64,000 nucleotides of DNA from Rhodococcus triatomae (GTDB taxonomy: Bacteria > Actinomycetota > Actinomycetes > Mycobacteriales > Mycobacteriaceae), in the NCBI RefSeq assembly GCF_014217785.1, contig NZ_CP048814.1, forward strand, positions 4,092,001-4,156,000. The letters run 5' to 3'. A program made the position numbers and the translations under genes. This document shows, piece after piece, positions 4,008 through 36,387 of the stretch (positions are counted from its first letter, which is position 1; the number at the start of each line of letters is the position of its first letter). Under the pieces are notes generated by a model. It had not been told where the DNA came from and ran no database searches. It saw nothing but the letters and a program-made list of their open reading frames with translations.

Positions 4008-4154
4008 GCGCCGAAACGCCTCCGAAGGCGGTTTCCGGCGCATGTGCAGTTCTCGGGCCCCAACCAGCTGGTCGGTCCTCGGTAGTGGTTGCCGGAAGCC
4101 GAAACTCGCATCGCAGGGCAGTGCCCCGGTGCGGGAGTAGAGCCTCCCGGCAAC
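4008..4154 (+). ncRNA. Structured 5' leader of gpsI (candidate actino-pnp motif)
   Basis: The roughly 300-nt leader of gpsI holds several pairings. A bulged hairpin lies at 4008-4041 (arms GCGCCG-AAA-CGCC against GGCG-GTTT-CCGGCGC). A long-range 8-bp helix joins GTTGCCGG (4088-4095) to CCGGCAAC (4147-4154). A small inner stem GGGAG/CTCCC lies at 4133-4148. Position and structure fit the Rfam actino-pnp motif, a conserved leader upstream of actinobacterial PNPase genes that is thought to mediate autoregulation through nuclease cleavage. I have not aligned it to the covariance model. Confidence 0.5.
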
Positions 4155-4237
4155 TTCGATCGATGGCCGCCGCAGCGGAAGTGGTGTTTCCCCGCGTGGG
4201 CCGGGCCCGGAAGACGAGACGAAGAGAAAAGACGAAG

Positions 4238-29675: not shown

Positions 29676-32300
29676 ATGGCAGGGAAGACGAGTGCCCGCA
29701 GTTCGAACCCGACGACGTCCAGGTCGACGGGTTCCCGGACGAGCACGCGCTCCGCGAAGCCCGCTGCCCGTGGTTCCCGGACCACCTCCACTCCCCGGAA
29801 ATCCGCACCCCGGACCGCGAATACCCGAGGTCGAAAGCCCGCGGCCAAGCGCCGTCCGGGTGGACCCCTGCAGTCGGTGGGGCGTGGCCTGGCCGCCGGT
29901 TGGGGCATGCTCGCCCGGGGCGTCGGGGCAACCACCCGGACGGTGAGCCGGGCGGCCGACATCGAGGAGGGGCACCGCAGAGACGGAATCGGCCTCGGTC
30001 TGCTGGCGATGTCGGTCGTCGTCGCGGGCAGTGTGTGGTTCTCGGCCGGTGGGCCGGTCGGGGAGTGGATCGAGACCGGCGTGCGCGCGGTGTTCGGCAG
30101 TGCGTCGGCACTGCTGCCCCTGGTCGCCGCCTCGATCGCGATCGTGCTCATGCGGACGGAACCGAAACCGGAGATCCGGCCACGCCTGGTGCTGGGCAGC
30201 CTGCTCCTCGGCCTGCCGATTCTCGGCCTCTGGCACCTGATCGCCGGCGCTCCCACGGACGCGTCGGCCCGGGCGAGCGCGGCCGGCTTCGTCGGTTACG
30301 GCACCGCGGGCCCGCTCACCGACGGCCTCACCGTATGGGTGTCCGTCCCGATCCTGCTCCTGGCCGGCATGTTCGGTGTGCTGCTGCTCACCGGGACCAC
30401 CGTGCGGGAGGTTCCGGCGAAACTGCGCGCTCACTTCGGATTCGGCCACGGGCACTACGACGAGTACGGCCACGACGGCGACTACGACCCCGCACTGTTC
30501 GACGCCGACGGCTATCCCGTCGACGACTACGGCTCGGGTTCACCGCACGAGAACTATCCGACGGACGAGTTCACCCGATCGCGCCGATCCCGAGGTACCG
30601 CCGAGACCCGCACCGAGGTCATCGGCCTGTGGGACGACGAGCCCGCCGCACACGCACCCGACTCCGCCCCGGCCGAACCCGAGCCCGAGGCGCCGCCGAA
30701 GGCGCGCAAGACCAAGCGCACCCCGAAACCGGTGGCCGCGCCGGATCCGGAGCCCGAGCAGCCGCCGTTGCCCGACGTGGACAAGTTCGTCACCGACCGG
30801 GTGGTGGAGGGCGACTACACCCTTCCCCCGTCGACCCTGCTGGTGGCGGGCGATCCACCGAAGAAGGGCAGCGCCGCCAACGACGCGATGATCGAGTCCA
30901 TCACGTCCGTCCTCGAACAGTTCAAGATCGATGCCGCGGTCACCGGCTTCACCCGAGGCCCGACCGTCACCCGCTACGAGGTCGAACTCGGGCCCGGAGT
31001 CAAGGTCGAGAAGATCACCGCCCTGGCCCGCAACATCGCCTACGCCGTGGCGACCGACAACGTGCGGCTGCTCGCGCCGATCCCCGGCAAGTCCGCGGTC
31101 GGGATCGAGGTGCCCAACTCCGACCGGGAGATGGTGCGGCTGTCCGACGTGCTGGGCGCTGCGAGCACCCGCCGCGACCACCACCCGCTGGTCATCGGTC
31201 TCGGCAAGGACATCGAGGGCGACTTCGTCAGCGCCAACCTCGCGAAGATGCCGCACCTGCTGGTGGCGGGGTCCACCGGCTCCGGTAAGTCGAGTTTCGT
31301 GAACTCGATGCTCGTGTCCCTGCTCTCGCGGGCGACGCCCGACGAGGTGCGGATGATCCTCATCGACCCCAAGATGGTGGAGTTGACTCCGTACGAGGGC
31401 ATCCCGCACCTGATCACGCCCATCATCACCCAGCCGAAGAAGGCGGCCGCCGCCCTCGCATGGCTGGTCGAGGAGATGGAGCAGCGCTACCAGGACATGC
31501 AGGCCAACCGGGTGCGTCACATCGACGACTTCAACAAGAAGGTCAAGTCCGGGGAGATCACCGCACCGCTCGGCAGCGAGCGCGTGTACCGGCCGTATCC
31601 GTACATCCTCGCGATCGTCGACGAGTTGGCCGACCTGATGATGACCGCCCCCCGCGACGTGGAGGACGCCATCGTGCGGATCACCCAGAAGGCGCGGGCC
31701 GCCGGTATCCACCTGGTCCTCGCGACCCAGCGGCCGTCGGTCGACGTCGTCACCGGACTGATCAAGACGAACGTGCCCTCGCGCCTCGCCTTCGCGACGT
31801 CGTCGTTGACGGACTCGCGCGTCATCCTCGATCAGCCGGGCGCGGAAAAGCTCATCGGTATGGGTGACGGACTGTTCCTGCCGATGGGTGCGGGCAAACC
31901 GACCCGTATGCAGGGTGCGTTCATCACCGACGAGGAGATCTCCGCCGTCGTCGACTTCACCAAGAACCAGGCCGAGCCGGAGTACACCGAGGGCGTCACC
32001 GCGGCGAAGGTAGGGGAGAAGAAGGACGTCGACGCCGACATCGGCGACGATCTCGACGTCCTGCTGCAGGCCGTCGAACTGGTGGTGTCGAGTCAGTTCG
32101 GTTCCACCTCGATGCTGCAGCGCAAGCTGCGCGTCGGATTCGCCAAGGCGGGGCGCCTGATGGACCTGATGGAGACCCGGGGAGTGGTGGGTCCGAGCGA
32201 GGGCTCCAAGGCCAGGGAGGTGCTGGTCAAGCCGGACGAGCTCGAGTCCACCCTGTGGTCCATCCGAGGCGGCGACCCCGAGGCGGACGGCGCGGAGTAG
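29676..32300 (+). CDS. ftsK: DNA translocase FtsK
   Basis: An 874-residue FtsK/SpoIIIE translocase that pumps chromosome DNA through the division septum. A Ser/Thr/Arg/Pro-rich basic N-terminus (1-70) is followed by about four membrane segments (roughly 105-245). An acidic Pro/Glu linker (250-370) comes next, then the RecA-like motor with Walker A GSTGSGKSS (near 531) and Walker B ILAIVDELADLMM (near 644). The C-terminal gamma winged helix (SSQFGSTSMLQRKLRVGFAKA, broken as SSQFGSTSML then QRKLRVGFAKA) reads KOPS. The ATG at 29676 was chosen on the -10 box and because it gives the family start MAGKT. Confidence 0.96.
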   Translation: MAGKTSARSSNPTTSRSTGSRTSTRSAKPAARGSRTTSTPRKSAPRTANTRGRKPAAKRRPGGPLQSVGRGLAAGWGMLARGVGATTRTVSRAADIEEGHRRDGIGLGLLAMSVVVAGSVWFSAGGPVGEWIETGVRAVFGSASALLPLVAASIAIVLMRTEPKPEIRPRLVLGSLLLGLPILGLWHLIAGAPTDASARASAAGFVGYGTAGPLTDGLTVWVSVPILLLAGMFGVLLLTGTTVREVPAKLRAHFGFGHGHYDEYGHDGDYDPALFDADGYPVDDYGSGSPHENYPTDEFTRSRRSRGTAETRTEVIGLWDDEPAAHAPDSAPAEPEPEAPPKARKTKRTPKPVAAPDPEPEQPPLPDVDKFVTDRVVEGDYTLPPSTLLVAGDPPKKGSAANDAMIESITSVLEQFKIDAAVTGFTRGPTVTRYEVELGPGVKVEKITALARNIAYAVATDNVRLLAPIPGKSAVGIEVPNSDREMVRLSDVLGAASTRRDHHPLVIGLGKDIEGDFVSANLAKMPHLLVAGSTGSGKSSFVNSMLVSLLSRATPDEVRMILIDPKMVELTPYEGIPHLITPIITQPKKAAAALAWLVEEMEQRYQDMQANRVRHIDDFNKKVKSGEITAPLGSERVYRPYPYILAIVDELADLMMTAPRDVEDAIVRITQKARAAGIHLVLATQRPSVDVVTGLIKTNVPSRLAFATSSLTDSRVILDQPGAEKLIGMGDGLFLPMGAGKPTRMQGAFITDEEISAVVDFTKNQAEPEYTEGVTAAKVGEKKDVDADIGDDLDVLLQAVELVVSSQFGSTSMLQRKLRVGFAKAGRLMDLMETRGVVGPSEGSKAREVLVKPDELESTLWSIRGGDPEADGAE

Positions 32301-32373
32301 CCCGGCGCGGGCGGCACGGAACAGCCCGGATGCGGGGCAGCTCCGCAGTGTTGTGCTTGAATGGAGCACGCAT

Positions 32374-32504
32374 GGAGGGGAGTATCCCCGCTTTCGCGGC
32401 AGCATCGTCAACACGTTCGGCACCGTCGCCGATCCGGGGCTGCCGGTCGGCCCTGTTCGGGCCGGCGGGAGAGACCTCCGGTACCGCTCGAGGTCTACCG
32501 GAGG
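32374..32504 (+). promoter_or_regulatory. yybP-ykoY (Mn2+) riboswitch upstream of terC
   Basis: The conserved pieces of the yybP-ykoY aptamer appear in order: GGGGAGTA (32377-32384), GTCAACACG (32407-32415), CTGCCGG, and GGGAGAGACC (32467-32476). The outer helix P1 pairs GGAGG (32374-32378) with CCTCC (32475-32479). The same 3' strand can instead pair CCTCCGGTA (32475-32483) with TACCGGAGG (32496-32504), which buries the terC ribosome-binding site GGAGGG. Metal binding should favour P1 and free the site, a translational ON switch. Aptamer class is known from family; the switch mechanism is inferred from these pairings. Confidence 0.88.
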
Positions 32505-32511
32505 GTTTCCG

Positions 32512-33549
32512 TTGAACGTTTCGCTGCTCACCTGGGTCGTGACGTGCGCCGTCATCCTGGCGCTGTTCGTCTTCGACTTCTACGCCCACGTTCGCACACC
32601 GCACGCCCCGTCACTGCGTGAATCCGGCTTCTGGTCCGCCGTCTACATCACCATCGCGATCATCTTCGGTCTTTTCGTCATGTGGATGTGGGGAACGGGA
32701 TTCGGCGGCGAGTACTTCGCCGGTTACGTCACCGAGAAGGCGTTGTCGGTCGACAACCTCTTCGTCTTCGTGATCATCATGGCCAGCTTCTCCGTGCCAC
32801 GGGAGTACCAACAGAAGGTGCTGCTCATCGGCATCGTGATGGCGCTGGTCATGCGCGGCGCGTTCATCGCGGTCGGCGCCGCGGCGATCAACGCGTACAG
32901 CTGGGTGTTCTACATCTTCGGCGCATTCCTGATCTTCACCGCTGTCAAGCTGATTCGCGACCACAACGGCGAGGAGGACGTCGAGAAGCAGCGGGACAGT
33001 GCCGTCATCCGGATGGTCAAGAAGGTGCTGCCGACCACCGAGGAGTACGACGGCGACAAACTGGTGACCAGGGTGAACGGCAAGCGGATGGTTACGCCGC
33101 TGCTGCTCGCGCTCGTCGCGATCGGCTTCACGGACATCCTGTTCGCACTCGACTCGATCCCGGCGATCTACGGACTCACCCAGGAGCCCTACCTGGTGTT
33201 CACGGCCAACGCCTTCGCGCTGATGGGCCTGCGCCAGCTGTACTTCCTCATCGGCGGCCTACTCGAGCGGCTGGTGTACCTGTCGTATGGTCTGTCGATC
33301 ATCCTCGCGTTCATCGGCGTCAAGCTGGTGTTGCACGCGCTGCACGAGAACACGCTGTCGTTCGTCAACGGTGGCGAGCACGTCTCGGTACCCGAGGTCG
33401 GCACCGCCTTCTCGCTCATCGTGATCGTCGGTGTGCTGGTCGTCACCACGATCGCCAGCCTGATCCGGACGAAGGGCGCTGCTCAGGTCGACGAGCGTCG
33501 CGGCGAGGACGAGCGTCGCGACGAGACGGTGCACGAGCGCCGGGACTGA
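32512..33549 (+). CDS. TerC-family membrane protein (Alx/MntX-like)
   Basis: A 345-residue TerC protein with about nine membrane segments, of the group linked to manganese export or metal loading of exported proteins. Characteristic stretches are TEKALSVDNLFVFVII (about 77-92, with acidic Glu and Asp in the membrane) and IGFTDILFALDSIPAIYG (about 205-222, with Asp residues). The charged tail is rich in Arg/Glu/Asp. The start is TTG at 32512, behind GGAGGG with 6-nt spacing, and is set by the riboswitch platform. The manganese riboswitch upstream argues strongly for a manganese-related function rather than tellurium resistance. Confidence 0.93.
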   Translation: MNVSLLTWVVTCAVILALFVFDFYAHVRTPHAPSLRESGFWSAVYITIAIIFGLFVMWMWGTGFGGEYFAGYVTEKALSVDNLFVFVIIMASFSVPREYQQKVLLIGIVMALVMRGAFIAVGAAAINAYSWVFYIFGAFLIFTAVKLIRDHNGEEDVEKQRDSAVIRMVKKVLPTTEEYDGDKLVTRVNGKRMVTPLLLALVAIGFTDILFALDSIPAIYGLTQEPYLVFTANAFALMGLRQLYFLIGGLLERLVYLSYGLSIILAFIGVKLVLHALHENTLSFVNGGEHVSVPEVGTAFSLIVIVGVLVVTTIASLIRTKGAAQVDERRGEDERRDETVHERRD

Positions 33550-36033: not shown

Positions 36034-36387
36034 ATGGCGCTGCTTTTGCGTGAGGCAATCGGTGACAGTCTTCGGCGTGCGCGCGTTTCGCAGAGCCGGA
36101 CCCTTCGCGAAGTCTCCCACAGTGCACGAGTGAGCCTCGGGTACCTCTCCGAGGTCGAACGCGGCCGTAAGGAAGCGAGCAGCGAGTTGCTCGCGGCGAT
36201 CTGCGAGGCGCTCGACGTGCCGCTGTCCGAGGTGCTCGTCGACGTCAGCGAGTCGCTGGCGGACGGCGTCGCCGCCACCGAACGCGCGGCGGCCGGGACC
36301 GGCGCCCCGGCGGACGTCCCCGCGGCGAGCATCGATCGCGACACCCGCGTGGTGATCCCCGCTCCGGCGGCGCTGGCGGCCGCGTAG
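36034..36387 (+). CDS. clgR: Transcriptional activator ClgR
   Basis: A 117-residue XRE-type regulator that in actinomycetes activates clp protease and psp genes. The helix-turn-helix spans roughly residues 15-70 ([20 protein letters not shown], then [17 protein letters not shown]). The C-terminus ends PAALAAA, resembling the Ala-rich degron by which ClpP removes ClgR in related species. AAGGAGGAG gives a very strong ribosome-binding site. The upstream GGAACC-N17-CGTT promoter suggests envelope-stress induction. pspA follows after a 224-bp gap containing a hairpin. Confidence 0.94.

Follow-up and report, generated by a model that had tools for sequence, protein, structure and literature searches.

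How terC of Rhodococcus triatomae is switched, and by what signal, is the question raised by the conserved leader that precedes this gene. We analysed the leader within a window of 64,000 nt (NZ_CP048814.1:4,092,001-4,156,000, forward strand), and all coordinates given below without a contig name are positions in this window. The terC gene (32512–33549, + strand) begins with a TTG codon at 32512–32514 and encodes a TerC/Alx-type membrane protein of 345 aa. In a protein profile search, the product was above cut-off for both PF03741 (181 bits) and TIGR03718, ‘R_switched_Alx’ (382.3 bits; cut-off 246.4), which identifies terC as a Mn2+-homeostasis target gene. A Shine-Dalgarno (SD) sequence, GGAGGG (32500–32505, + strand), lies 6 nt 5′ of the TTG start. 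The comparative evidence makes it very likely that the leader is a riboswitch of the yybP-ykoY class that would switch terC translation ON, with Mn2+ as the presumed ligand.

Anatomy and conservation of the terC leader

By its anatomy, the sequence from 32374 to 32479 is a yybP-ykoY (Mn2+) aptamer, with all elements on the + strand. The first-pass annotation had listed the core pieces of this class in their proper order, and their letters and coordinates are all exact. The 5′ strand of P1.1, GGAGG (32374–32378), pairs with CCTCC (32475–32479). It is followed by L1, GGAGTA (32379–32384), which contains the counterpart of the A-minor adenosine A10 of the crystal structures, and by the 5′ strand of P1.2, TCCC (32385–32388), which pairs with GGGA (32467–32470). 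At the level of secondary structure, P1.2, P2, P3 and P4 form a four-way junction: P2 is a short hairpin (32389–32398; 32389–32391 with 32396–32398), P3.1, L3 and P3.2 occupy 32399–32443 (P3.1, 32399–32403/32439–32443; P3.2, 32417–32421/32428–32432), and P4 is a hairpin in the predicted fold (32446–32466; 32446–32453 with 32459–32466). The 3′ strand of P1.2 and the 3′ side of L1, GGGA and GAGA, together span 32467–32474, and GAGA-CCTCC is read at 32471–32479. Within L3, the Mn-sensing strand TCGTCAACACG (32405–32415) includes CGTCA (32406–32410), which places the Mn-contacting adenosine in its GUCA/GUCRA context; A 32410 is the counterpart of A41/A48, whose role is described in PMC6754395.

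A probable extended −10 promoter element, TGC TTGAAT (32354–32362, + strand), was read by eye, and TGn-TT[G/C]AAT recurs at a similar place 5′ of GGGGAGTA in those leaders of the same genus that have the element. If this element is real, transcription would probably start at about 32368–32370. A consensus sigma-70 scan of the leader region found no promoter.

To compare the leader with its orthologues, we searched 61 genomes (60 relatives and R. triatomae itself) for TerC proteins, with matches in 57, and took 30 TerC loci (29 from relatives, plus our own). Twenty of the 30 have GGGGAGTA within 190 bases upstream. When these 20 leaders are aligned, the letters of GGAGTA, CGTCA and the 3′ GAGACCTC are invariant, as are P1.2 and the GA on the 3′ side of L1 that adjoins P1.1 (32473–32474 in the window). 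GGAGTA would correspond to positions 8–13 in L. lactis numbering, a tentative match. Roles are given in PMC6754395 for G8 and the A facing it, G9 and the G facing it, A10, and the L3 adenosine; on this tentative match, the L1 and L3 counterparts of the letters named there are invariant in all 20 leaders.

The paired regions change in a manner expected of an RNA structure. With a hand-drawn aptamer structure, 95.3% of cells in the 20 leaders are paired and 10 of 26 pairs have changed on both sides. None of 500 shuffles reached the value for paired cells or for two-sided changes, although 3 of 500 did so for the number of additional pair types. When the structure was slid along the alignment, paired cells dropped to 34–48%. 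P1.1 is paired in 99% of cells, the middle pair of P2 is A-U in 11 leaders and G-C in 5, and two-sided changes are found in four of the five P3.1 pairs and three of the five P3.2 pairs; P4 enters the covariation count with its three outer pairs. Unguided, RNAalifold recovered from the same leaders the SD hairpin described below, P3 and the L3 stem, and it favoured a 5′ GGGG/CCCC hairpin over P1.

This 5′ hairpin, GGGG-AGUAU-CCCC (32377–32389), can form from letters of P1.1, L1 and P1.2, and may be a folding intermediate. We set it aside as a dedicated OFF element because almost every one of its letters is invariant among the 20 leaders and also serves P1.1, L1 or P1.2.

The same comparisons bear on a further explanation, namely that the pattern arose by chance in GC-rich DNA or that the leader encodes additional N-terminal sequence of TerC. 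A GTG ORF is open from 32353 and runs in frame through terC, as an extension would require, and the covariance model RF00080 finds no match here. However, a sequence-only motif (GGGGAGTA, GTCRA and GAGACYT, with spacers) has just two matches in the genome, the terC leader and the leader of a GDT1/UPF0016 gene, and the backwards control of this motif has none in the same genome; across the 61 genomes, R. triatomae included, 39 matches were listed against one control match. Moreover, the 20 orthologue leaders are 137–167 nt long as cut, with many indels that are not multiples of three, and they covary as RNA. We consider the probability of chance or a coding extension to be negligible.

Covariance models, loop-3 subtypes and downstream genes

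A search with RF00080 had been put forward as a check of the aptamer, the lack of a covariance-model match to count as a refutation, and it came back negative: there was no match in the window at the cut-off (gathering score 45), and none at E ≤ 10 in 32301–32560. In the whole genome at E ≤ 10, RF00080 has two matches, both elsewhere, the better being C1:1992927-1993048 at 24.8 bits. It gave a single match, of 14.6 bits, on 15 of the 20 element-bearing orthologue loci; over 296 actinomycete genomes, none passed the cut-off and 12 matched at E ≤ 0.01. On E. coli, RF00080 scored mntP at 41.6 bits, below its cut-off of 45, and did not match alx at E ≤ 1. A 14-genome control, in which an E. coli genome was among the matching ones, two of these being over the cut-off, conflicts with these E. 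coli results. Since proven members of the class, too, are overlooked by RF00080 or fall short of its cut-off, its failure at terC is not disqualifying, and we did not retain it as arbiter. The consensus L3 of RF00080, CAACAUACUUG, is as in mntP and nearly as in the R. triatomae GDT1 leader, whereas the alx and terC leaders have CGUCA-NYACG; RF00080 therefore appears to cover mainly the mntP-like subtype. As RF00080 passes its cut-off in none of the 296 actinomycete genomes sampled, the element goes unnoticed in their automatic annotation.

We constructed a covariance model, R1, from 18 of the 20 actinobacterial terC leaders. R1 finds the E. coli alx leader (35.5 bits, E 4.2e-8), so that the terC leader has covariance-model kinship with a proven member of the class; E. 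coli mntP gave no match to R1 at E ≤ 10. At E ≤ 0.01, R1 has matches in at least 175 of 251 family genomes and at least 174 of 296 class genomes, TerC being present in 259 of the latter at E ≤ 1e-20, so that many genomes with TerC lack an element among the matches listed. The R1 genome counts are lower bounds, with 12–15 candidates scored per genome, and the R. triatomae GDT1 leader, which scores 45.4 bits when R1 is applied to it directly, is absent among the genome matches listed.

In total we examined 130 elements (92 + 38), for which 80 further regions had been hand-picked from the listed matches; near-copies, as judged by genus, were omitted (L036–L044, L046, L049, L051, L055–L057, L062, L063 and L065), and one element is counted under two handles, L032 and L071. 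By tblastn over at least 1.2–1.5 kb downstream, 125 of the 130 precede TerC, one precedes GDT1/UPF0016 and four precede neither. This linkage is a real test of R1, because the model contains nothing about the downstream gene, and it would link terC with manganese control in no fewer than these 125 leaders.

The larger set also extends the evidence on structure. GGGGAGTA is present in all 130 elements, partly through the way they were selected, and GAGAC is present in 128. Going outward from L1, the five P1.1 positions are paired in 100, 100, 100, 96 and 85% of elements. On these sequences P1.2 covaries: its second pair is C-G in 77 elements, U-A in 53 and nothing else, and its first pair is U-A in 103, C-G in 17, G-C in 1 and unpaired in 9, counts that are uncorrected for kinship among the elements and that come from a structure model favouring paired sequences. 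The U-A half of the second pair is nonetheless informative, because the model that selected the elements was trained on C-G at this position. CGTCA is found in 129 of 130 elements, with NYACG after it in 127; the exception is the GDT1 leader, which has GTCGACATACT.

The kinship with alx, a leader described as a Mn-responsive riboswitch (PMC9603457), raises the possibility that the yybP-ykoY fold has been kept in terC leaders but mainly reports another signal, such as alkaline pH or another divalent metal. An alx riboswitch reporter responds to pH 8.5 alone (PMC9603457), and the terC element has the same L3 letters as alx. However, all 129 CGTCA-type elements have the adenosine that corresponds to the Mn-contacting one, and alx is highest when Mn and alkaline pH are combined (PMC9603457). 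We give a signal other than Mn2+ little chance of being the principal one.

The second yybP-ykoY element of the R. triatomae genome, C1:1992927-1993048 (L001:1501-1622), has GTCGACATACTGG and a G at position 14, and the gene behind it encodes a GDT1/UPF0016 antiporter (PF01169, 140.5 bits). From the 39 motif matches in 61 genomes, we took the 20 outside R. triatomae that have G at position 14. L3 is ACAUACU-like, by eye, in 17 of these, of which 11 lie before GDT1/UPF0016 (in L192 the gene matches only weakly, at E 9e-8), six before neither query and none before TerC. Three have GTCAATACGG as L3, two of them before TerC and one before neither query. Given two of three as against none of 17, it is L3, rather than position 14, that tracks TerC among these elements. 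The TerC-linked loop-3 subtype is the freshest aspect of our results.

It is tempting to suppose that one actinomycete possesses two Mn2+ aptamer subtypes in which the sensor loop tracks the target, with L3 CGUCA-NYACG and the P1.1/SD switch serving TerC, and L3 ACAUACU with a G-C closed L1 serving GDT1/UPF0016 and other exporters; different Mn2+ (or Mn2+/pH) thresholds might then turn on TerC metalation and bulk export sequentially. We offer this as a speculation that is more probably wrong than right, and co-inheritance of leader and gene accounts for the link between L3 and target as well as tuning does. On this speculation, the terC and GDT1 leaders of R. triatomae would be a candidate Mn2+ system with two thresholds.

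Ten of the 30 TerC loci (L018–L027), all from the same genus, are without the element in the 190 bases upstream. In these, terC lies directly behind the end of an ftsK-like gene (by eye), and the same gene precedes terC in the window. The ten loci form one side of one branch of the TerC tree (99/95; 98% of 200 bootstrap trees), and a single loss is therefore the simplest reading.

Two further genes were seen behind terC-type elements. One (L083, L204:241-4854) encodes a 1538-aa P-type ATPase and has a similar SD-hiding hairpin, CCTCCAGCG/CGCTGGAGG (by eye), upstream. The protein scores 230.1 bits with TIGR01494 (cut-off 62.3), and its best model is a PMR1-type Ca ATPase, below the cut-off of that model; the position of the element hints at a Mn2+ role for this pump. 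The other is found in two genomes of one genus (L131 and L154), where the genes behind terC-type elements encode similar proteins of unknown family; Pfam gave no match for 276 aa of the L131 protein.

A strand shared by the aptamer and the hairpin over the ribosome-binding site

The first-pass annotation had pointed out that the 3′ strand of P1, CCTCC, is also the 5′ half of a 9-bp hairpin over GGAGGG, and this is exact by sequence. CCTCC (32475–32479, + strand) is the 3′ strand of P1.1; alternatively, it is part of the 5′ arm of an SD-hiding hairpin, CCTCCGGTA/TACCGGAGG (32475–32504, + strand; 32475–32483 with 32496–32504), with nine Watson-Crick pairs. All but the last letter of the ribosome-binding site GGAGGG falls within the 3′ arm, TACCGGAGG. 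The aptamer helix and the SD-hiding helix thus have 32475–32479 in common and exclude each other.

Two mutually exclusive helices that share one strand predict that the P1.1 5′ strand, the P1.1 3′ strand and the SD sequence change together. We allowed partner segments lying 3–14 nt 5′ of any codon that could start TerC in frame. In 113 of the 125 TerC leaders, six or more of the first seven positions of the P1.1 3′ strand pair with such a segment, at a distance of 4–14 nt; 12 leaders fail this criterion. Consistent with the prediction, the triple at position 4/107/SD in the 113 leaders is G-C-G in 99, A-U-A in six and mixed in eight.

Covariation of the SD hairpin in the 20 orthologues alone was not beyond shuffles (34 to 145 of 500 were equally high); that set is too weak for the purpose, and the 125 wider leaders were needed. 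A first shuffle of the 113 leaders was biased because the rows had been preselected for pairing, and we therefore repeated the control on all 125, exchanging downstream regions among them with the register re-optimised at every swap and without preselection for pairing. Over nine positions in 125 leaders, there are 982 standard and 944 Watson-Crick pairs, values reached by none of 500 swaps. This amounts to 7.86 of 9 pairs per leader, as against 7.46 after swapping and 6.45 when each leader's own region is shuffled. The margin over the swaps, though consistent, is small, because most leaders have CCTCCGG/CCGGAGG in common. For the 31 leaders whose switch strand does not begin with CCTCCGG, the standard-pair value was reached by one of 500 swaps and the Watson-Crick value by none. 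We conclude that P1 and the sequestering hairpin exclude each other, as had been proposed for this locus, on the strength of both the three-strand covariation and the swap control.

A second hairpin, GACCTC (32473–32478)/GAGGTC (32490–32495), excludes the SD hairpin in the R. triatomae genome and was considered as an anti-sequester. We rejected it, since GGU becomes part of a longer SD hairpin in the best fold; the GAGGTC half is missing or weak by eye in some orthologues (e.g. L005 and L013).

Predicted folds, from a model that excludes tertiary docking and metal, place the ligand-free leader firmly in the OFF state. The sequestering hairpin has a probability above 0.5 in 97 of the 113 leaders, and P1.1 in none; in the window, 32500–32504 of the SD sequence has an unpaired probability of 0.0–0.015. 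When P1.1 and P1.2 were enforced, SD accessibility rose in 104 of 113 leaders, by more than 0.3 in 61, with a median of only 0.37. The ON state without ligand costs a median of 12.0 kcal/mol in the 113 leaders, and for the window leader the ligand-free fold favours OFF by 12.6 or 9.2 kcal/mol, depending on the ends used. Given so strong an OFF preference, we infer that P1.1 forms during transcription, before the SD arm is made.

A free fold in which the SD is strongly hidden is also what would be seen if there were no ligand at all, and a static SD hairpin or an RNA thermometer simply lay beside a conserved upstream element. This explanation does not account for a whole four-way junction that is conserved and covarying, L1 and L3 included, nor for a P1.1 that excludes the SD hairpin with covariation across three strands, and we consider its prospects to be very slim.

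We also considered a Mn2+ riboswitch that acts chiefly on transcription, with the untranslated OFF leader undergoing Rho termination and the SD hairpin acting through translation-transcription coupling. In E. coli, the mntP leader is subject to the action of Rho (PMC11647493), and a consensus scan of 32280–32620 found no terminator between the aptamer and the start codon; intrinsic termination was rejected, the sole terminator-like site in this region (32546–32563) being within terC. However, it is the SD sequence that takes part in the conserved and covarying contact, as translational control predicts, and we regard a chiefly transcriptional switch as unlikely.

The aptamer class and the ON-switch logic suggested at the outset therefore have comparative support, from the covariation of the aptamer and P1.2, the SD pairing and the kinship with alx, and Mn2+ is the probable ligand. 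For translational control of terC by Mn2+, we propose the following sequence of events. Without Mn2+, CCUCCGGUA (32475–32483) would pair with UACCGGAGG (32496–32504), hiding the SD sequence. P1.1 would form co-transcriptionally, before the SD arm exists, and Mn2+ would hold it in place; this is the weakest step of the proposal. By filling the L1–L3 site, Mn2+ would cause both legs of the junction to dock, and P1.1 (GGAGG 32374–32378/CCUCC 32475–32479) would become stable. A stable P1.1 would withdraw the switch strand from the SD sequence, allowing terC to be translated, and TerC may in turn increase Mn2+ export or Mn metalation. Mn2+ has been reported to stabilise P1.1 of the riboswitch from X. 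oryzae (PMC6754395), the E. coli mntP ribosome-binding site to be inaccessible without Mn (PMC11647493), and B. subtilis TerC proteins to function in Mn efflux and in metalation of exported enzymes (PMC10550928). The switch is compact, and its ON and OFF pairings are separable by point mutations.

A local regulatory circuit around the switch is not supported. The MntR-type repressor that the first-pass annotation had placed at 2 kb is read as the DtxR-family gene at 1656–2366 (− strand), which is about 30 kb from terC, and we rejected a local MntR circuit on account of this distance. The product of this gene scores 180.1 bits on an MntR model (cut-off 350); it belongs to the DtxR family, has a FeoA domain, and is nearest to MntR models, below their cut-offs, and the gene adjoins a ribF-like gene (by eye). 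The other DtxR-family gene of the genome is of the DtxR/IdeR type. Elsewhere in the window, an Actino-pnp RNA (RF01688, 57.3 bits) lies at 4071–4171, 5′ of an apparent polynucleotide phosphorylase gene (by eye), and an XRE-type regulator is encoded at 36034–36387 (ClgR model, 160.4 bits; cut-off 170). Near the window edge, 147–1574 (− strand) encodes a DUF222-HNH protein. DUF222-HNH genes are often multi-copy in actinomycetes.

Comparison with known manganese riboswitches

A yybP-ykoY leader before terC has been in print since 2013 (PMC3890552). That element, 5′ of cg2157 (terC) in C. glutamicum, resembles ours in its position before terC in another actinobacterium, and the RNA-seq 5′ end of the cg2157 leader is 6 nt from the Rfam start; unlike ours, it was a prediction from an earlier Rfam model, with a score of 49.13 bits (PMC3890552). 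One yybP-ykoY element is reported for C. pseudotuberculosis (PMC3890534). Among the papers listed in our literature searches, no title or abstract opening describes such a switch in actinomycetes. In V. parahaemolyticus, TMEM165-family and terC genes behind predicted yybP-ykoY elements are Mn-induced; RNA-seq revealed no drop at the element there, and the mechanism was left open by the authors (PMC13274385).

The terC leader shares with the solved L. lactis and X. oryzae aptamers an SRL-like L1 with A10, the L3 adenosine (A41/A48) and a weak P1.1 switch helix (PMC6754395). However, the X. oryzae riboswitch is transcriptional (PMC6754395), and a terminator has been proposed for that of L. lactis (PMC11647493), whereas in the terC leader one strand of P1.1, the 3′ one, doubles as the anti-SD arm. 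In this respect it is closer to the translational Mn riboswitches of E. coli, in which the ribosome-binding site is likewise inaccessible without Mn (PMC11647493). E. coli mntP and the R. triatomae GDT1/UPF0016 leader belong to the same yybP-ykoY class but, unlike the terC leader, have an L3 with ACATACT and a G at position 14.

The E. coli alx leader is similar in its L3 pattern, CGTCA-TTACG, in the TerC-family gene downstream and in being found by R1. It differs in the pair that closes L1, which is A-U in alx and U-A in the terC leader, and in the sequences of P1.1 and of the expression platform. We conclude that the terC leader is real and probably works as an ON-switch for Mn2+, that it belongs to a known class, and that its subtype, linked to TerC, is one it has in common with alx.
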